Shown piece after piece: positions 6,027 through 52,469 of a DNA stretch of 53,180 nucleotides (position 1 is the first letter of the stretch; every line of letters begins with the position of its first letter). The stretch comes from a virus: the IMG/VR virus record IMGVR_UViG_3300050821_003181, positions 1-53,180 of that record, one strand, 5' to 3'. Under the pieces are notes generated by a model that was not told the DNA's origin, ran no database searches, and saw only the letters and a program-made list of their open reading frames with translations. A program made the position numbers and the translations under genes.

Positions 6027-6278
6027 TCACCGACGCGGCAACGCCTGTTGATACATCTGCTGGCTGCTCGGCACCCCACCCTCGATCCCAGGCGGCTGAT
6101 ACACCAGCGCACCCGTGCCAGGCGGCACCCACACCCCGCCACCAGCCGCCGGCGGGTAGTAGGCCGGGGGCGGCGACCCGTATCGCACGCCCGGTTGCCC
6201 GTATTGCTGCGCCGTCGCGTCACCAGCGCACAACGTCAGTGCCACTGCCACGATCGTCCCGATTGTCCTGTTACCCAT
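6027..6278 (-). CDS. Secreted Pro/Gly/Tyr-rich protein
   Basis: An 83-residue product. ATG 6278 is preferred over a GTG nine bases upstream because GGGGAGG is better spaced for it. Residues of about 1-24 are a Sec leader ending in DATAQ (likely cleavage at AQ-Q). The mature part is rich in Pro, Gly and Tyr (PPPAYYPPAAGG), unlikely to be globular, so an exposed envelope-bound peptide is plausible. No known family. Confidence 0.5.
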   Translation of the reverse strand: MGNRTIGTIVAVALTLCAGDATAQQYGQPGVRYGSPPPAYYPPAAGGGVWVPPGTGALVYQPPGIEGGVPSSQQMYQQALPRR

Positions 6279-41090: not shown

Positions 41091-41723
41091 ATGTTCCTCA
41101 ACAACTCCGGCACCCAGCAGGGTCTGCATCGCTCCTACCGAGCGGACGGCGCGCTTACGAGCAGCGTGACACCACTGCTCGTTCTGCCACAAGCGATCAG
41201 CCGCTCGTCCATGCTGGTGATGAACATCTCAGCCACCCCGATGTTCCTTGAACACGGCTGTGCCCGAGCCTTGGTCACGATCACCGCAGGAGCTGTCACC
41301 GCGATCACCGTCACCAACGGAGGGTTCGGGTTCACCCGCGCTCCCACGGTGGAATTTGTTGGTGGAGACGCGACGTACGTTGCTAATACGGTTTGGAATG
41401 GTCGTGGATTGCCGGGCGCGCAGTCTCCGTCTGGACCGACCTCGCAGCCTGCCATGGCACATGCGGTCCTGACGGGAGGCGTGGTCACGTCGATAGTCAT
41501 CGACAACCCCGGCGCGGGTTATGTGAATCCGCCGGAGGTTCTGTTGACCAACGCGGTCAACGATCCGTTCGGATGTGCCGATCCGTCGTTGACCGCAGGC
41601 AGCGGGGTTCTGCTCGTGCCAGGAGGCGGCAGCATGTACATCAACGGCACCACCTGCTACACCGACGCCGTTGCGCTCTGGGGAACTGCGGCGGCCAAGT
41701 TCACGGTGGAGTATATGCCGTGA
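41091..41723 (+). CDS. Glycine-repeat virion protein
   Basis: A 210-residue product, ATG 41091. It contains GGFGFTRAPTVEF and GAGYVNPPEVLL, the same repeat found in the genes at 23972 and 25822, and begins with a helical and beta start with no leader peptide. The end is beta-rich. An elongated tail-tip part is plausible. Stop overlaps the first signal-peptide gene (GTGA). Confidence 0.55.
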   Translation: MFLNNSGTQQGLHRSYRADGALTSSVTPLLVLPQAISRSSMLVMNISATPMFLEHGCARALVTITAGAVTAITVTNGGFGFTRAPTVEFVGGDATYVANTVWNGRGLPGAQSPSGPTSQPAMAHAVLTGGVVTSIVIDNPGAGYVNPPEVLLTNAVNDPFGCADPSLTAGSGVLLVPGGGSMYINGTTCYTDAVALWGTAAAKFTVEYMP

Positions 41724-42124
41724 CCGTCCGGTTGATCGCGATTGCGGCGGTGGCGCTGATGCCGGCGATGGCGTGGGCGCAGCCGGTGGTGCCGGGAAGT
41801 GGATCGGCTGGCGGCATCCCCGGTGGCGTAATACTGGTGCCTCCTACCGGCACTCCAAATGAAACTTCGGTTCCCTGTGGTGTGGGCTCGACCTTATTGC
41901 TTGCAGCAGGGGCCGCGACACAGTTCATTTTTTACAAGGTCCCGCAGGGCGGCAGCACGGTATGGTTCAACGTCGCCGGTGCGCCAGCCGTGGCAGCGCC
42001 TCCAAGCGTCGATCTGGCCGGCGGCATGTGGCAGACGTGGAGCGCCGCGCAGGGATTCTTACCGTCCTCACAGATCAACTGCATCGCGCCCGTCGCACAG
42101 ACCGTCGAACTGATCTGGAAATAG
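41720..42124 (+). CDS. Secreted protein 1 of the exported cluster
   Basis: A 134-residue product from GTG 41720, coupled to the gene before it. Sec leader: TVRLIAIAAVALMPAMAWAQ, likely cleaved after AWA, then a Gly/Pro-rich and beta mature part. Two Cys remain after cleavage (VPCGVGS, INCIAP), so one disulfide is possible. Known roles of the fold are not clear. It opens a run of six genes with leaders. Confidence 0.6.
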   Translation: MTVRLIAIAAVALMPAMAWAQPVVPGSGSAGGIPGGVILVPPTGTPNETSVPCGVGSTLLLAAGAATQFIFYKVPQGGSTVWFNVAGAPAVAAPPSVDLAGGMWQTWSAAQGFLPSSQINCIAPVAQTVELIWK

Positions 42125-42130
42125 CGCGCG

Positions 42131-42496
42131 ATGTCGATCCTTCGCCGTTACCTCCTGGCCGTTGCCATCGCCACGGCGCTCGCCGCGATCAGTGCTGTGC
42201 TGCCCGCCCATGCGCAGACCCCGTGCCCGATGGTCAGCGACGAGGTTTCGGTGCTGTCGGTGGTGATCATCGGCGCACCGCAGCCGGTGCTGTTCTCCAC
42301 CTACGACATACCGAAGCTTAACCTGTGGCTGCAATTCTCCGACCAGACGTATCGGTTTTTCATGGGCGTCCCGCAGACGGAGATACGCGGCACGGCGAAC
42401 TGGTCGGTCATCAGTAGACACCATCAGGCGTTGATGCAGGAACGTAGCCCGTGTCCGCTGCTCTCGGAGAGCGGGCCGCCGCTGCAACCCAGATGA
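42131..42496 (+). CDS. Secreted protein 2, weakly KTSC-like
   Basis: A 121-residue product, ATG 42131. Sec leader ends PAHAQ; the mature part begins TPCPMVSDEVS. FSTYDIPKLNLWLQFSDQTY, then RFFMGVPQTEI, resembles the KTSC domain (weak). Two Cys in the mature part (TPCP, SPCP). Its stop overlaps the next start as ATGA. Function unknown. Confidence 0.55.
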   Translation: MSILRRYLLAVAIATALAAISAVLPAHAQTPCPMVSDEVSVLSVVIIGAPQPVLFSTYDIPKLNLWLQFSDQTYRFFMGVPQTEIRGTANWSVISRHHQALMQERSPCPLLSESGPPLQPR

Positions 42497-44295
42497 AACG
42501 GTTTGCCACGGCCGCACTGCTCGTCAGCACTGCGCTGTCGGCGCAAGCGCAGCCGGTGAGCACACTGCCTCCAGCGGACCTGCCGCTAAGCGGAGCGGAG
42601 ACAACGTACGTCATCCAGGGCGGTGTGTCGAAGAAGACCCCGGTTTCGTCCATGGGCGCGTTCCTAAGTCTGTCCACGCCACCCCCGATCGGCAACGTTA
42701 CCCCCAACACAGGCGCGTTTTCGACGCTGACGGTCGGGGGCGTTCCGATCGCCGGGGGGTCGTTTCTGCCGATCACCGGCGGCACGCTGACGGGGCCATT
42801 GATTGGCACTAGCGGAACCTTCAACGGCCAGCTCATCTCAACCGGCACCAACCTCGTCGCGGCTGGCAACGGCACGTCTATCAACAACGTTATCCGGCTC
42901 AATCCCGCCGCGTCGCCAACCGTGCCGACAATCACTACGGCAGGACCAGCCGGCGCGGTGCCGCTCACGCTGACAACTCAGAGCGGCGGTCTGTTCACCG
43001 TCACCAACGGATTGCAGACCAATGCTTTCCTGAATATTGCCGCCGGCCTGACCACGTATGCAGGTCCGGCAATCACCAATACGCCGTTCAAAATGAGCGT
43101 CAGCGTCAATACCGGTACGCACCTCACGGGCAACGACACGCTCGCATCGTTCAACTGCAATTCGGACAATGGCTTGGTGGACAACGGCGGTTTTCTGTCC
43201 TGTATGAGCATCCAGGATGGCGTCGGCGGTTCAGCCATGACCGGCAATCGCGTCGGGTTTAATCAGGTCATATCCCTTACCAATCCGACCGGAAACAGGG
43301 CCGCAGGAAATCAGGGCATCTATCAGGGCGGCAGCTTCACGGTAAACCTAAATTCCAGCGACAATGGCACGGCGGCAACGCTCGCTGGCGGTTCGGGTTA
43401 TGCCTTTGGCGGGGGTGCCGTCATGGCCGGCAATGCTTCCGCGCTGAATTTCCTGGAAGCTACGACGTGGGAGGATGATATGACCTTCCGCGGCACAACG
43501 GCCCGCCGCATCGGCCACAAGGTCACGGATATCTCTGGCGCACTCGGCCTCGGCGCTGTCCAGGGCACCGTTGCGGATCAGGCTTTCCGTATTGGCTCCA
43601 GCGTCAATAGTCCGGGATGGCTTGATGGGTATTCGGCGTGCGGAGACGTGTCAGTCTGGTGCATCACTGGCACGCTGCTCCATTCGCAGCTTGGCACGAC
43701 ATACAATGCGAACCCGAACGCGCTGCAATATGGCATCGATCTGGTCGGCACGGCCGCAAGCGGGGCCGAGTGGCGCTCAAACGGCATTGCGCTGTTCGAC
43801 AACGGCGCGGCGCGTTTCAACACGCTCTATATCAACAACGACACCAACGGGCCGACGCTCAGTGCGAACGGGAGCGTTGGCGCATATTCGTCGGTGATTT
43901 CTGGCGGGACCTCGGGATGGGCGGGGACTGACGTGCTGTTCGGACCATACGACGATGTGTGGCAAGTTTTGACAACCACAGGTGGCGTCATCACCGCGTT
44001 GGCACTGGCGACTGGTTCCACCCCGCCGTATTGCCCGAGTGCGTGCCCCGCCAGTTACAACCTGACCAAGGCAAAATGGTCCGCTGGCGTTGGCACTGTG
44101 ACCGTGGGCGTGAGTTGGACAGCAAAGAACGCACTCAAGATCGCGGGCGCAACCGACAAGCTGGGGTTCTACAACGCAACGCCGATCGTCAAGGCAACGC
44201 CAACGGGCGCGTGCGCGGGCAACACGGGTTGTCAGGCACTGCGTGACGCGATGGGCAATCTTGGGTTGATCGCAACGGGGAGTATTACAAATTGA
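42493..44295 (+). CDS. Tail-fibre-like protein with a Sec leader
   Basis: A 600-residue product; ATG 42493 is coupled to the gene before and starts the leader KRFATAALLVSTALSAQAQ. The mature part begins like a phage fibre shaft (ETTYVIQGGVSKKTPVSS, then GGTLTGPLIGTSGTFNGQL) and ends like fibre tips of proteobacterial phages (KLGFYNATPIVKATPTGA). It has eight Cys arranged in four near-neighbour pairs, as in disulfide-bonded exported proteins. A virion fibre with a leader is unusual; an alternative is an in-frame start at 42451, which would hide the leader. Confidence 0.6.
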   Translation: MKRFATAALLVSTALSAQAQPVSTLPPADLPLSGAETTYVIQGGVSKKTPVSSMGAFLSLSTPPPIGNVTPNTGAFSTLTVGGVPIAGGSFLPITGGTLTGPLIGTSGTFNGQLISTGTNLVAAGNGTSINNVIRLNPAASPTVPTITTAGPAGAVPLTLTTQSGGLFTVTNGLQTNAFLNIAAGLTTYAGPAITNTPFKMSVSVNTGTHLTGNDTLASFNCNSDNGLVDNGGFLSCMSIQDGVGGSAMTGNRVGFNQVISLTNPTGNRAAGNQGIYQGGSFTVNLNSSDNGTAATLAGGSGYAFGGGAVMAGNASALNFLEATTWEDDMTFRGTTARRIGHKVTDISGALGLGAVQGTVADQAFRIGSSVNSPGWLDGYSACGDVSVWCITGTLLHSQLGTTYNANPNALQYGIDLVGTAASGAEWRSNGIALFDNGAARFNTLYINNDTNGPTLSANGSVGAYSSVISGGTSGWAGTDVLFGPYDDVWQVLTTTGGVITALALATGSTPPYCPSACPASYNLTKAKWSAGVGTVTVGVSWTAKNALKIAGATDKLGFYNATPIVKATPTGACAGNTGCQALRDAMGNLGLIATGSITN

Positions 44296-44834
44296 TCCGC
44301 GCGCTCGCTGCGTTCCTGCTTTCGCTCATCACGATCTCCGCCGATGCGCAGGTTGTGTCAAACGGAACAACTGCGCCCGGCTTCGTGCGCCTGTTCTCGA
44401 ACGGCGTCTCGTCCGGCAACGGCGCCGATATCACCGAGGACACGCTATCGACGTGCGTCTATACAATCCCAGCCAACCAACTCGCGAACGTCGGCGACAC
44501 GCTGCATATCGTGGCAGGCGGCACCTTCGCAGGTAGCACGGATGTCAAGACAGCAAGGGTGCGGCTGGGCGGCGTTACCGTGGCGTCGTTCGTCGGGTCC
44601 ACTGCCGGGGCAACCGCGTGGTTCATGCAGGCGGATGTCATCAAGACCGCAGCCGGGGCTCAGATGACCAACACGTTTTCATTTGCGCTCAACCAGACAT
44701 CGTTTGTGCTGGGTGGAGCAACCGCACTCACTGATACCGCTACGATCCCGCTGCTGGTGACCGGGATCAACGCGACGAACTCGGTGGCGGGGTCGATTAC
44801 GTGCCGGTATCTGACCGTGGATTTTGTGCCGTGA
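44292..44834 (+). CDS. Secreted beta-sandwich-like protein
   Basis: A 180-residue product, TTG 44292 overlapping the previous stop (TTGA). Leader MIRALAAFLLSLITISADAQ. Mature part beta-rich (TCVYTIPANQLANVGDTLHI, VKTARVRLGGVTVASFVGS), like a jelly-roll tail domain. Two Cys (STCVY, ITCRY), one possible disulfide. Third of the consecutive fibre-like or beta-rich exported products. Confidence 0.55.
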   Translation: MIRALAAFLLSLITISADAQVVSNGTTAPGFVRLFSNGVSSGNGADITEDTLSTCVYTIPANQLANVGDTLHIVAGGTFAGSTDVKTARVRLGGVTVASFVGSTAGATAWFMQADVIKTAAGAQMTNTFSFALNQTSFVLGGATALTDTATIPLLVTGINATNSVAGSITCRYLTVDFVP

Positions 44835-45061
44835 TGCGGCGCGCGCTCCTTGCGGCGCTTGTGCTGATGCCGTGCGCGGCCGTGGCGCAGCAACAGCCGC
44901 CCGCGCCATCGGCCACGGCGCAGTTCGTGGGGCAGGTTTCCACGCTGCTCGCCTCGACGCTGGATGAGCGGGACGCCGCACGCTCGCAACTCACCGCGTG
45001 CCAGGCCGCAGCCAAGCCGGCGCAGCCGCCAACGCCATCACCGGAGACGCCCTCCAAATGA
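44834..45061 (+). CDS. Small secreted protein
   Basis: A 75-residue product, ATG 44834 at a TGATG overlap. Leader RRALLAALVLMPCAAVAQ; the mature part has a coiled stretch (QFVGQVSTLLASTLDERDAA) and a Pro-rich tail. One Cys remains. Overlaps the next start by ATGA. Unknown. Confidence 0.5.
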   Translation: MRRALLAALVLMPCAAVAQQQPPAPSATAQFVGQVSTLLASTLDERDAARSQLTACQAAAKPAQPPTPSPETPSK

Positions 45062-45144
45062 GTGGAACCACGACGCTTACCATCACCGGCACCTTCACGG
45101 TCCACGACGCGGCCGGCACAGTGACGGGCAGCACCACACCGTGA
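45058..45144 (+). CDS. 28-residue ORF duplicating the GH5 protein's N-terminus
   Basis: Starts at ATGA overlap 45058. The product reads SGTTTLTITGTFTVHDAAG, then TVTGSTTP, almost the same as residues of the large GH5-like protein at 46152 (AVTITGTFTVHDAAG). The DNA also matches over 40 bases (45079-45118 with 46182-46221, two mismatches). It may be a leftover of that gene's 5' end or a functional mini-module. Confidence 0.5.
   Translation: MSGTTTLTITGTFTVHDAAGTVTGSTTP
45079..45118 (+). repeat. 40-base direct repeat, copy 1
   Basis: Matches 46182-46221 in direct orientation with two mismatches (positions within the CACSTTCACGG and GACGCSGCCGG segments). The two copies bracket about 1.1 kb holding a tiny membrane gene, a secreted protein gene and an HNH endonuclease gene. 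Suggests duplication or insertion. Confidence 0.8.
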
Positions 45145-45254
45145 TGTCGGCCTATGGAGTTATGACAGTGGCCGCTGCGGCATTCGCTGTGGGATTTATT
45201 GTAGGAGCAGCATTGGCCTTCTGGGGCATGCAGCAGGAGAACCGCCAGCCATGA
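45144..45254 (+). CDS. Small membrane protein
   Basis: A 36-residue product, ATG 45144 at a TGATG overlap. One strong hydrophobic helix (VAAAAFAVGFIVGAALAFWG) and a short polar end. Coupled to the next gene by ATGA. Unknown function. Confidence 0.45.
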   Translation: MSAYGVMTVAAAAFAVGFIVGAALAFWGMQQENRQP

Positions 45255-45547
45255 TCCGCACGCTCCTAGTCGCGCTGGCGCTCGCCGCTCTGTCCGGCGC
45301 GGTGCGTGCGCAGAACACGACAGCGATGTTTGGTGATCTGAAATTCGAGAGTGGCAACAGCGGCGCTACAAACGCGCAGGCCATTTATCCGGCAATCAAC
45401 GCGCCGTTCGGATCGACGGCCATCGCGGTTAATACGACCGCCGTGGACACAACGGCCGACGCCTTCGTCAACATCAACGGCACGCTGGCGCTCGGCACTG
45501 AGACGCTGACGCTGCTTGGGTACACGGTTGAAATTCTGAGGCAATGA
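45251..45547 (+). CDS. Small secreted protein, last of the exported cluster
   Basis: A 98-residue product, ATGA overlap. Leader MIRTLLVALALAALSGAVRA, then QNTTAM; the mature part is Asn/Thr/Ala-rich and beta (INAPFGSTAIAVNTTAVDT). No Cys in the mature protein. Function unknown. The next in-frame start (45544) runs into the HNH gene. Confidence 0.5.
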   Translation: MIRTLLVALALAALSGAVRAQNTTAMFGDLKFESGNSGATNAQAIYPAINAPFGSTAIAVNTTAVDTTADAFVNINGTLALGTETLTLLGYTVEILRQ

Positions 45548-45627
45548 GTGATACAATGATGCGAGCCAGAGAGGCGTTTGCACCGCCGCCCTGGCTCTTA
45601 CCACGACATCCTGTGATGGAGGATACA

Positions 45628-46155
45628 ATGGCTGATGGCGATGATACGCCAGAGTGGCGCCCAGTTCCAGGGTTCCCGAATTATCTCGTTAGCTCGGATG
45701 GCAAAGTCCTAAGCCTTAAGCGACGTGGAGCGCCGGGCGGCATTCGCAAAACATTCGATCACGGGTCAGGGCATCTACATGTCGTTCTATTAAACGGTTC
45801 ACATAATGACCGACACGGTTTTATGGTTCACCATTTAGTTTTGGAAGCATTCGTTGGGCCTCGACCGCAAGGTATGGAATGCCGGCATTTGGACGGCAAC
45901 CCTGCCAATAATGTAGTTAGCAACCTTGCGTGGGGAACACGATCTGAAAACCAACTCGATCGCGTCTCTCATGGCACGCACCACGAGGCAAACAAAACGC
46001 ACTGTCCCCATGGTCATCTTTACGACGAGCAGAATACCAGACATCGAAACGGCAAGAGGCATTGTATGACTTGCCAGCGTAAGGCGACCAGAGAATCCAT
46101 GAAACGTCTGAAGCTGCGCCGAAAGAAGGTAATGCGTCAGGAGACACCGCAATGA
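45628..46155 (+). CDS. NUMOD4/HNH homing endonuclease
   Basis: A 175-residue product; ATG 45628 follows GGAGG with five bases between. A start at 45544 is in frame and coupled to the preceding gene, so the first 28 codons may belong to a small interrupted gene. NUMOD4 motif: EWRPVPGFPNYLVSSDGKVL; HNH motif: VHHLVLEAFVGPRPQGMECR, HLDGNPANNVVSNLAWGT. C-terminal Cys-x-x-Cys pair (MTCQRK area) and basic tail bind DNA. GC content is clearly lower than in neighbouring genes (about 38-50 percent in sampled lines), as in recent arrivals. Confidence 0.8.
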   Translation: MADGDDTPEWRPVPGFPNYLVSSDGKVLSLKRRGAPGGIRKTFDHGSGHLHVVLLNGSHNDRHGFMVHHLVLEAFVGPRPQGMECRHLDGNPANNVVSNLAWGTRSENQLDRVSHGTHHEANKTHCPHGHLYDEQNTRHRNGKRHCMTCQRKATRESMKRLKLRRKKVMRQETPQ

Positions 46156-47402
46156 GCACCACGGCACCGACCACGGCCGTCACCATCACCGGCACGTTCA
46201 CGGTCCACGACGCCGCCGGCAACACCTGGGGGCCGATCGCCGCTCCGACGCCGCCCCCGCTGGTCGCCTCACAGGACGGCGCAACCGCCTCCGACCTCAC
46301 CACGATCCTCGTCACGGCCGATCTGTGCCAGTGGAAGCTGGCGGTGGGGACGGCATCCCAGGGCACCATCGTGACGTGCATGCCGAAGGGCGCCGCGGCG
46401 TTCGTGGCGGCCGGGTTCACCGGCAACGTGCGGATGATGGAGGCGTTTGGGGGCGGCATCTTCCACACGTCGCCGAACGCCAGCAGCTACGGGGCGCCTG
46501 GTTGGTGGGCAGGCACTGGCACGGGCAGCGCCGTGGCATGGGCAGCGGTGCCGGGCAGTCCCAGCGCCGTTCCTGTTCCCCCGGTCACTGGCACCTTCAC
46601 CGTGACGGCCACAGGGTTCACCGATCCATCCGGCAAGCCGTGGACGATGCGGGGGGTGAACGCTTGGGCGGCCGATGCCCGTGCTGCATGGCCGAACATT
46701 CGGAGCCAATTCCCGCACCTAACGGCGATCAGGCTGAATTGCGACAGCGCCACGGACACGCCAGCCAGTATCGTCGATGTCGTCACAACATACACCGGCG
46801 CCGGGATCGTGCTCATCGTCGAAGACCACGGCGGCAATGTCGAGAACCTCCAATGGTATCACAACATGGCCACGGCCTATAAAAACAACCCGCGCGTATT
46901 TCTGGAGATGCCAAACGAGCCATCAGCGTCCAATCTGGCGGCTGAGCAGATCGCACTCATCCAGCAAATTCGCAACGCTGGATTTGTCAGCCCAATCGCC
47001 ATTCAGCCATCCGGGGGATGGGACGAAGGGAATCTGCCAGCGGTCGTGGCCGCGGTCGGCACGACGAACCTCTATGCGACCCCACACATCTACTACAACG
47101 GCACCGATCCGAACGGTGCGGCGCAATACGTGACTGGCGAGATCAACGGTGCGGCTGCGGTCGGCCTGTTCGCCTCGATCGACGAATTCGGTGACGGCAT
47201 GGATGGCTGGCACGAAGACCCGCTTGGCTCGGCGACGATCAACGCCGTCATCGCTGCCAATCAGGCTGGGCGTTGCGGAGCGGCATTCTGGGCACTCGCG
47301 AACGGCATGCACGCCGATGGCGTGGATAGCGTTGAACTGGTGGCCGACTGTTCGCAACTCACGCCGGTCGGCGCGGGGCCGATAAAGAACTGGTTGGGGT
47401 AG
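46152..47402 (+). CDS. GH5 cellulase-like enzyme with N-terminal module
   Basis: A 416-residue product, ATGA overlap at 46152. Residues 1-145 hold a module with TITGTFTVHDAAGNTWG (same as the 28-residue ORF). Residues 150-416 are a TIM barrel of GH5 type: Arg194 (IRLNCDS), catalytic acid Glu256 in FLEMPNEPS, His312/Tyr314 in TPHIYYNG, nucleophile Glu345 in IDEFGDG, Trp380 in AFWALANG. The whole catalytic set is present, so beta-glucan or cellulose cleavage is likely. No leader peptide is seen, so it is probably virion-bound through the N-terminal module, inferred. Two homing endonuclease genes flank it. Confidence 0.8.
   Translation: MSTTAPTTAVTITGTFTVHDAAGNTWGPIAAPTPPPLVASQDGATASDLTTILVTADLCQWKLAVGTASQGTIVTCMPKGAAAFVAAGFTGNVRMMEAFGGGIFHTSPNASSYGAPGWWAGTGTGSAVAWAAVPGSPSAVPVPPVTGTFTVTATGFTDPSGKPWTMRGVNAWAADARAAWPNIRSQFPHLTAIRLNCDSATDTPASIVDVVTTYTGAGIVLIVEDHGGNVENLQWYHNMATAYKNNPRVFLEMPNEPSASNLAAEQIALIQQIRNAGFVSPIAIQPSGGWDEGNLPAVVAAVGTTNLYATPHIYYNGTDPNGAAQYVTGEINGAAAVGLFASIDEFGDGMDGWHEDPLGSATINAVIAANQAGRCGAAFWALANGMHADGVDSVELVADCSQLTPVGAGPIKNWLG
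46182..46221 (+). repeat. 40-base direct repeat, copy 2
   Basis: Second copy, inside the 5' end of the GH5-like gene, matching 45079-45118. See copy 1 for the bracketed segment. Confidence 0.8.
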
Positions 47403-47573: not shown

Positions 47574-47638
47574 TGTATATTGGCGGCGGTCTCGGGTTGA
47601 TCCTGCTAATCCTGTTGATCATTTTTTTGATTAGATAG
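47573..47638 (+). CDS. 21-residue membrane peptide
   Basis: A tiny product of one hydrophobic helix: YIGGGLGLILLILLIIFLIR after the first Met. ATG 47573 is coupled to the previous stop (TGATG). Similar tiny peptides are common in phages. It ends at TAG in the overlap with the GIY-YIG gene on the other strand. Confidence 0.5.
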   Translation: MYIGGGLGLILLILLIIFLIR

Positions 47639-48422
47639 GAAGTGGTAGCTGTGCAGCTGGAACTTTCTTGCGTTCCCATGCGGCCTTAATGTTTTTTAGG
47701 TGCTCCTGGGACTTTTGTCTGCCTTTCCAATATGTGCGGAGGAACTGTTTCTTGTCCTCTGACACAATACGTCGAGAGGCGGCGGCACTTATGGCCGCTT
47801 TATGTTTGTCTGTAAACGGTTTGGCCTTAGTTCCTTTCCTTGCGGCGCTCATTTTTGCTCTAGCCTGTGGTGTGGCGATTATCCCTGTCTTGGCCTTACT
47901 AAGCGCCGGATACTTTTTACCCTTCCGGCCGGCGCCGATTGCCGCTCGATGCTCATCGCTGCGCGGTGGCATCTTTCTCCCCTTCCGAGTTTCGCTCATC
48001 CGATCGCGTGTCTTCTGGGAGGCTTTGTGTCCTCTTGGGCCGCCGGCTTGCGGATACCCATTAAAACCGGCTGTCGGATGAAACGCTCCCAGCGCATTAA
48101 TCCAGAACTGCTCACGAACGAACAAAGCGTCGTGACTGACGACGTGCTCCAATATTTCCCACGAGAAGGCAGCTTCGCCGTGCTTGTTCCAAGATCGCTG
48201 GAGAGCGAGAGCGTGATGCGTTCCGCGCTCCAGTTGGTGGATATGGCTGCTCCAGCGCAGTCCTATCGTATAGGACGACCCGACATACAGTCGGCCACTC
48301 ACTACGTTGAAGATCGCATATACGCCGCTGATCTTCATGTTGGTCCGCCTGACGGGGCGCTTGCCAACCACAAGGCCGGCTTGGACGCGGGCGGCTATCT
48401 GCTCTACGGAAATGGGAGCCAT
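47631..48422 (-). CDS. GIY-YIG homing endonuclease
   Basis: A 263-residue product from 48422, with GAGGAATGCG upstream; an alternative start at 48338 lies just before the nuclease domain. GIY-YIG core: SGVYAIFNVVSGRLYVGSS, HIHQLERGTHHALALQRSW, HGEAAFSWEILE. Then several NUMOD3-like repeats (KARAKMSAARKGTKAKP, SDEHRAAIGAGRKGKKYP), which bind DNA. Opposite orientation and lower GC in places show later insertion. It flanks the GH5 gene together with the HNH gene. Confidence 0.85.
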   Translation of the reverse strand: MAPISVEQIAARVQAGLVVGKRPVRRTNMKISGVYAIFNVVSGRLYVGSSYTIGLRWSSHIHQLERGTHHALALQRSWNKHGEAAFSWEILEHVVSHDALFVREQFWINALGAFHPTAGFNGYPQAGGPRGHKASQKTRDRMSETRKGRKMPPRSDEHRAAIGAGRKGKKYPALSKAKTGIIATPQARAKMSAARKGTKAKPFTDKHKAAISAAASRRIVSEDKKQFLRTYWKGRQKSQEHLKNIKAAWERKKVPAAQLPLPI

Positions 48423-51527: not shown

Positions 51528-52096
51528 GCGCAGCGCAGGATGCGTGGCTCGCGTTTCTGCTTCCGGCAGAGGGCTTGACGCTCTCGGTAACACCGACTGA
51601 CCCCGGAAACTGGACCTCGGGGATTGAGGGCATCGGCGAGTTGGTCGGGACAAAATACGGAATCAGCGCGGCGGTCTACCCAACAACGGACATAGCCGCA
51701 CTGACGCTGGCCGAGGCGCAGGCCCTGCAACTGGCAGACTACTGGACCCCGGTCGGTGCCGACAGCCTCCCGCCGCCGCTCGCCTTCCTGGTCGCCGACG
51801 CGGCCTATATGTCTGGCCCGCGCACCGCGGCGAGGCAATTACAGGTGATGGTTGGCACCGCTCAGGATGGCGCAGTTGGTCCTGTCACGATCGCGGCGCT
51901 GACGGCGCAGATTGCAAAGCTCGGCATGTGCGAGGTACTGGCCGAGTGGAGTGCGCGGCGGGTTCTGTTCGAGGCTGGGTTGCCGATCTGGGGCACCGAC
52001 AAGGGCGGTTGGGTGCGGCGGGTGATGCGCGGGCTGCTGGTGGCGAAGTCGCTGGATGTGCCGGCGCTGGCGGTCAGCGGGGGGGCGGTGGCGTGA
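51524..52096 (+). CDS. Endolysin, GH108-type muramidase
   Basis: A 190-residue product from GTG 51524, overlapping the previous stop. FLLPAEGLTLSVTPTDPGNW gives the catalytic Glu16 within the E-G-(x)n-P-x-D-P-G block of glycoside hydrolase 108; GTKYGISAAVYP and QALQLADYWTPVGADSLPPP follow. C-terminal part has the PG-binding-3 layout (ARQLQVMVGTAQDGAVGPVT). It cuts peptidoglycan at the end of infection. No leader, so the holin or another route must let it reach the wall. Confidence 0.85.
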   Translation: MSAAQDAWLAFLLPAEGLTLSVTPTDPGNWTSGIEGIGELVGTKYGISAAVYPTTDIAALTLAEAQALQLADYWTPVGADSLPPPLAFLVADAAYMSGPRTAARQLQVMVGTAQDGAVGPVTIAALTAQIAKLGMCEVLAEWSARRVLFEAGLPIWGTDKGGWVRRVMRGLLVAKSLDVPALAVSGGAVA

Positions 52097-52469
52097 CGGG
52101 CGCGCTATACGGCGTTCGCATGTCGATGTCCGAGTTGACCGCCGGCACCAACTGAACCGGAGACGGCTTGCTTGTCCCCGCGGCCTGCCAGCCGGCATTG
52201 AACCCGATGAGCAGATATCGACAGAGGGATATCTGGTTCCATTCCACCTCCATCCGCCGATAGAGGGAGGTCGCATCGGGGCCAACCGGATAGGCAGGCA
52301 ATGGCTTGCTGGCGCATTCGACGACCTTCTGCCAGTCGCCATGCACCTGTCCGGTGTCATCCACGTAGAACTGCACGGTCTGCGCCGATGCCGGTACGGC
52401 AACCGCGAGGAACAGGCACAGCGCGGCGCGGGCGGCCACCAGCAGCGGCCTAGACGATCGGCAGTCCAT
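52074..52469 (-). CDS. Secreted protein of unknown function
   Basis: A 131-residue product, start 52469. Leader LLVAARAALCLFLAVAVPAS then AQ, likely cleaved after SAQ or A-S-A. The mature part starts TVQFYVDDTGQVHGDWQKVV and has a Cys pair (ECASKP, LCRYLL), so it may hold a disulfide. Overlaps the endolysin gene's 3' end by 23 bases on the opposite strand. A longer frame upstream to 52577 lacks support. Confidence 0.5.
   Translation of the reverse strand: MDCRSSRPLLVAARAALCLFLAVAVPASAQTVQFYVDDTGQVHGDWQKVVECASKPLPAYPVGPDATSLYRRMEVEWNQISLCRYLLIGFNAGWQAAGTSKPSPVQLVPAVNSDIDMRTPYSAPVTPPPPR

Follow-up and report, generated by a model that had tools for sequence, protein, structure and literature searches.

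Tail fibres set which host a phage infects, and their synthesis is understood to take place in the reducing cytoplasm. The window analyzed here, which spans all 53,180 bases of the virus record IMGVR_UViG_3300050821_003181 in IMG/VR, raises the question of whether this holds for all of them, as a first-pass annotation had pointed to six coupled genes at 41720-45547 that begin with apparent secretion leaders, one of them encoding a fibre-like protein. Leaders of the Sec/SPase I type direct Sec export and cleavage by signal peptidase I (SPase I), and disulfides form in the periplasm. Altogether, the comparisons presented below suggest that several unrelated phage groups appear to export some of their tail-fibre proteins via the host secretion pathway for disulfide bonding.

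Identification of the leader block

All six ORFs were present with the proposed start codons, namely GTG at 41720, TTG at 44292, and ATG at 42131, 42493, 44834 and 45251. Stop/start overlaps, which had been described for most of these genes, were found at five of the six start codons, the exception being 42131, which starts 6 nt downstream of the preceding stop codon. Leaders were called with a home-made rule that scores n-region charge, the h-region and an AXA-type site within about 30 residues, and that passes 1.05% of random start codons trailed by at least 49 open codons. By this rule, the Sec/SPase-I-type N-terminal leaders were recovered in all six genes with their n-region, h-region and AXA-type site, each leader running from a short positive stretch through a hydrophobic core to a site ending A/Q (the slash marks the likely cleavage site). 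The canonical lipobox, with Cys at +1, was absent from all six leaders, and no obvious outer-membrane anchor was seen in any of the six proteins. The even numbers of mature Cys attributed to four of the genes were confirmed as 2, 2, 8 and 2; the remaining two have 1 and 0.

The rule passes 6 of the 8 ORFs in 41720-45547 versus 3 of the 77 other genes in the window (hypergeometric P about 5e-6). The two block ORFs without a leader, at 45058-45144 and 45144-45254, are small and were missing from the first-pass list. Outside the block, SPase-I-type leaders were also observed in two small proteins encoded on the minus strand at 6027-6278 and 52074-52439. Directly after the block and in the same operon, 45544-46155 encodes an HNH endonuclease with a NUMOD4 motif and has stop/start overlaps at both ends, and a minus-strand gene at 47631-48422 resembles by eye a GIY-YIG-type homing endonuclease. 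A megablast search of the window tail region against cultured phages gave no DNA-level match.

Individual proteins of the block

The block lies on the plus strand, directly downstream of a leaderless virion-type gene (41091-41723, plus strand) that shares 55% identity with the gene immediately preceding the leader block in a related contig, G019. The stop codon of this gene is overlapped by the start of the first block gene (41720-42124), which encodes a 134-aa protein with the likely leader MTVRLIAIAAVALMPAMAWA/QPV, cut about after A20, and mature Cys at 53 and 121; this protein had no match in Pfam or PHROG.

The second gene (42131-42496) encodes a 121-aa protein whose leader, MSILRRYLLAVAIATALAAISAVLPAHA/QTP, ends AHA/Q (28), and whose Cys are at 32 and 108. 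Pfam PF13619 (KTSC domain) gave no match for 42131 itself, and its homolog L125:3738-4394, a leader-bearing tandem of the KTSC-like domain, matched with E=0.0011 and 19.1 bits, which is below the curated cut-off of 25. The 42131 model also matched the KTSC structure 4rgi weakly (prob 0.99, E 0.037). The family thus shares the fold and a weak profile match with KTSC, but is leader-bearing and has an invariant Cys pair, both Cys being kept in the three domain copies available (42131 and the L125 tandem). Within the window, 42131 is the only gene whose Cys pair is conserved across leader-bearing homologs; its search against cultured phages returned no match.

The third gene (42493-44295) encodes the 600-aa fibre, in which the leader MKRFATAALLVSTALSAQA/QPV, cut after A19, is followed by the virion-fibre N-terminal motif LPPADLPLSGAETTYVIQGG, of the form PLTGxE...Q.G. 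Its eight mature Cys fall in four near pairs (222, 237, 383, 390, 514, 518, 574 and 580), and a 38-aa stretch is 58% identical to the G019 fibre. Peptide patterns revealed no near relatives in IMG/VR, and tblastn against cultured phages gave no match.

The fourth gene (44292-44834) encodes a 180-aa protein with the leader MIRALAAFLLSLITISADA/QVV, cut after A19, and Cys at 55 and 171. Its homologs are C-terminal domains of larger leaderless phage proteins (L002, a collagen-like fibre, and L003) and a stand-alone protein without a leader (L004). The structural model has a mean pLDDT of 68.6 and adopts a beta jelly-roll fold, with viral matches to the KP34 depolymerase and the phi15 tail spike, and weak PDB matches to lectin/C1q/TNF-like domains. 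This fold and the homology to C-terminal fibre domains identify 44292 as a tail-fibre tip domain. One Cys near the C-terminus is common to all four aligned sequences, and the second, Cys 55, is missing at that place in the three leaderless homologs.

The last two leader-bearing genes are smaller. 44834-45061 encodes 75 aa with the leader MRRALLAALVLMPCAAVA/QQQ, cut after A18, and a small mature part with one Cys (56), its other Cys falling inside the leader; 45251-45547 encodes 98 aa with the leader MIRTLLVALALAALSGAVRA/QNT, cut after A20, and no Cys. No family match was obtained for these two proteins or for 41720. Leader regions of different phages repeatedly include small leader-bearing proteins of this kind (44834-45061, G009:35143-35418 and G019:17830-18132), with mature parts that are short and charged and contain 0-1 Cys. 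Between 44834 and 45251, the 36-aa ORF at 45144-45254 has one hydrophobic segment and did not pass the SPase-I leader rule, and the 28-aa leaderless ORF at 45058-45144 resembles the N-terminus of the protein encoded at 46152-47402 (phmmer E 8e-4). The latter is a leaderless GH5 cellulase-like protein with 5 Cys, whose N-terminal motif TITGTFTVHDAAG is repeated in the 28-aa ORF, which may be a duplicate or a remnant of such an N-terminus.

A collinear relative with two leader blocks

The contig G019 (54.9 kb, including locus L129) is collinear with the window. With roles assigned from gene order and size, the terminase-like proteins are 60% identical over 268 aa, the portal-like 63%, the capsid-like 90% and the tail gene 25822 49%. 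As in the window, leader-bearing genes, of which at least 10 are present in G019/L125, follow the 41091 ortholog (55%); G019 also has a leaderless fibre gene that is related to 37889/39809. A second leader block, with a KTSC-like gene and a PLSGAE fibre, lies between the orthologs of 25822 and 28400. It also includes a leader-bearing protein of 1394 aa that combines GH5 and GH26 domains with 24 Cys (L125:8276-12460, equivalent to G019:30221-34405). Since the leader blocks sit at differing sites, and since the GH5 protein is leader-bearing in G019 but leaderless in the window, the leader trait seems to be a property of cassettes that relocate and alter.

Leader-bearing and leaderless members of fibre families

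Three fibre families, designated PLTG, GYVPT and gp31-type, mix leader-bearing and leaderless members. For the first of these, a pattern scan of IMG/VR for the PLTG-type motif gave 121 in-frame matches, 120 of which were leaderless by the rule and one of which (L010) had a leader. Most leaderless copies have a start codon about 8-20 residues ahead of the motif. These counts bear out the description of the 600-residue protein as belonging to a type that normally has no leader; 42493 has the PLTG motif but also a leader, unlike ordinary members, and is thus a variant of PLTG fibres. Additional leader-bearing copies (L124 and L125/L127/L129) were revealed by a scan demanding AQ upstream of the motif. 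The first-pass annotation had made conservation of the leaders among homologs a check on their reality, and the outcome was divided: most homologs have none (120 of 121 for PLTG), but leaders recur in other lineages. Judged from the sequences, the leader is a genuine addition that has recurred, and not a product of mis-assigned start codons. Downstream of the fibre genes on the uncultured phage contig of L010, an apparent outer-membrane beta-barrel gene with a leader (L010:10318-11118) was observed, which is possibly host-derived.

Leaders are more common in the GYVPT family (SxPxWxYGYVPTxxQWN), where 13 loci, 12 of them distinct, were found and 9 of the 12 have a leader just ahead of the motif. 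The gp31-type family, whose homolog in Burkholderia phage Bcep781 is tail fibre gp31, gave at least 109 usable loci, with 18 leader-bearing and 91 leaderless members among the matches listed. Its leader-bearing versions have in common with Bcep781 gp31 and the PHROG 12796/38625 tail fibres the N-terminal domain IPxKFxxPF...GFPPxxFxP..GGxPPxGxDxNG, and their genes are placed after baseplate J and I homologs, as in Bcep781. In L133, with a leader cut at 21, position 6 of the PHROG tail-fibre profile aligns to residue 27, and in the leaderless L132 and L134 position 1 aligns to residue 1. Among the matches listed, contigs with a leader-bearing copy carried a single family member in 13 of 14 cases and two in 1 of 14, so that a leaderless second copy is usually missing, although several of these contigs are fragments.

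Cultured phages provided few counterparts. The cultured gp31 relatives translated (Orisa03, RCIP0114, XapPhi1 and P11B) are leaderless and without Cys pairs, whereas the leader-bearing versions found are uncultured. No leaders were found in the fibre-region genes tested of the cultured Rhizobium phage RHph_I1_23, which has one virion gene in common, in the fibres of Pseudanabaena phage Pam5, or in a Mesorhizobium plasmid homolog, and in phiKX1 and phiKM1 leader calls were confined to small proteins. Among cultured phages, the sole leader-bearing example came from Acetobacter phage phiAO1 (LC644971), whose tail-fibre region encodes PhiAO1_380, an 820-aa protein that has 2 mature Cys behind a predicted leader, as in the leader-bearing fibres; it is annotated as hypothetical only, and the related phiAP1_570 is without a leader. 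A term search of the phiAO1 paper found no tail-fibre or proteomic work, and the paper rates the prophage as incomplete (PMC8566455). The phage is reported to be inducible by mitomycin C in A. orleanensis NBRC 3170. Scans of genome contigs with the AQ plus PLTG pattern and with the Cys-pair pattern gave 0 matches each, and hence no host was obtained.

Cysteine pairing in leader-bearing fibres

The N-terminal domains of 103 gp31-type fibres from the matches listed (17 leader-bearing and 86 leaderless) were aligned and their Cys positions compared. Six columns have Cys in at least two leader-bearing rows, and these resolve into three pairs, 44/65, 125/164 and 30/77, occupied in 11, 6 and 2 of the 17 leader-bearing rows among the matches listed. 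No row has a single Cys of a pair, and all six columns are free of Cys in the 86 leaderless rows among the matches listed. By locus, again among the matches listed, the 44/65 pair is present in 11 of 18 leader-bearing and 0 of 91 leaderless members. The 30/77 pair provides a clear local contrast, in that a Cys of this pair in L194 and L208 is replaced by Tyr in their leaderless neighbour L177. The proposal of disulfide formation after export is thereby strongly supported, as Cys pairs were gained jointly and, among the fibres aligned, solely in leader-bearing gp31-type orthologs.

Across complete Cys-containing fibres of the three families (gp31-type among the matches listed), an even number of mature Cys was observed in 22 of 23 leader-bearing versus 43 of 106 leaderless proteins, a contrast for which the Fisher value of 8e-7 overstates independence, because leader-bearing rows cluster on the gp31-type tree. 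Parsimony on this tree gives 6 state changes, 2 of them forced by well supported branches, which leaves too few independent pairs for a paired test. Other leaderless genes of five leader-bearing phages have even Cys in 101 of 212 cases. At the level of sequence, the conclusion that leader presence tracks oxidative folding is well supported.

Proposed export, oxidation and late attachment

The reading we favour, and consider somewhat probable, is that these tail-fibre-type proteins are Sec-exported, disulfide-bonded in the periplasm and joined to virions at lysis. The block products, tail-fibre-type and appendage proteins, would be made as Sec precursors and carried over the inner membrane by their leaders. 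SPase I would then cut each leader, leaving an N-terminus that resembles those of ordinary leaderless fibres, and disulfide bonds would form in the periplasm. Once lysis frees the virions, the mature proteins would encounter them and bind by way of their N-terminal domains, as leaderless relatives do. The retention of fibre N-terminal domains and the location of a usually single-copy leader-bearing gene at the standard myophage fibre locus argue for virion fibres matured in the periplasm. Export and oxidation of the leader-bearing fibres are well supported as predictions; we infer that cleavage and the disulfides are real, and that the mature proteins join virions at lysis.

Tail-fibre assembly is normally cytoplasmic, which counts against this explanation. 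For several phages, classical in vitro work showed completed particles taking up fibres and spikes, which makes late attachment physically plausible. Filamentous-phage coat proteins are synthesised with Sec leaders and are thus virion proteins made as exported precursors, like the proposed fibres, although filamentous phages assemble in the membrane and tailed phages in the cytoplasm. No earlier description of Sec-exported tail fibres was found in the literature searched, which came mostly from outside the subscription journals.

The main rival is action outside the virion: the exported, disulfide-bonded proteins would never join particles, and in the periplasm or at the surface they would block receptors, serve as exclusion factors or, as enzymes set free at lysis, degrade glycans. 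The superinfection-exclusion proteins T5 Llp, T4 Spackle and phi80 Cor are likewise phage-encoded and exported during infection; these are small dedicated proteins, whereas the block has fibres with virion N-termini and no canonical lipobox. An exported protein near tail genes is known in lambda Lom, whose gene lies between spike and fibre genes (PMC12309495), and the GH5 and GH26 domains on the leader-bearing protein of G019 would suit a glycan-active role. The window phage also has separate leaderless fibre genes, 37889 and 39809, so that the leader block need not contain its main fibres, and it is for the window that this rival keeps its plausibility; G005 and G006 likewise carry other large leaderless virion-like genes. 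Against it stand the fibre N-terminal domains kept in the mature proteins, the standard and usually single-copy fibre locus in myophages, and the lack of a canonical lipobox or obvious outer-membrane anchor in the six proteins. The roles first suggested for the block, namely receptor masking, exclusion of other phages and surface remodelling, gained no positive support; the mature proteins keep ordinary virion-fibre N-terminal domains. We regard a role outside the virion as unlikely, but as deserving serious consideration.

Much less probable is that the leader-like segments are unused for export, being mis-called starts or uncleaved membrane anchors, with true starts at downstream GTG/ATG codons. 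The leader calls rest on a home-made rule, early V or M codons occur in other block genes too, and an in-frame GTG in 42493 yields MSTLPPADLPLSGAE, close to leaderless fibres; this GTG, however, is without an obvious Shine-Dalgarno sequence. Mis-calling would also have to account for leader features in six of eight adjacent ORFs against a background of 1%, for leaders recurring directly ahead of three different fibre domains, and for strictly paired, leader-only Cys, which are hard to explain in cytoplasmic proteins. That the block encodes lysis-related periplasmic (spanin-like) proteins, or host-derived secreted proteins acquired by chance, is highly improbable, for although the block precedes the likely lysis region and 44834 is small, fibre motifs and fibre-tip folds are found in 42493 and 44292, canonical lipoboxes are absent, and in relatives similar leader genes are interspersed with those for baseplate and tail.

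Conclusions

Periplasmic maturation followed by attachment at lysis thus remains the preferred reading. We give even chances to the broader proposal that several tailed-phage lineages have independently shifted fibre maturation outside the cytoplasm. Fibres would be Sec-secreted and oxidised in the periplasm, virions would receive them only at lysis, and this two-compartment assembly would depend on host Sec and probably Dsb. The combination of a leader with even, paired Cys provides a sequence signature with which such fibres may be found in uncultured phages. If some phages do export fibres, virion assembly would include a step outside the cytoplasm, the host factors for phage maturation would include Sec and probably Dsb proteins, and disulfides could stabilise fibres in harsh habitats.
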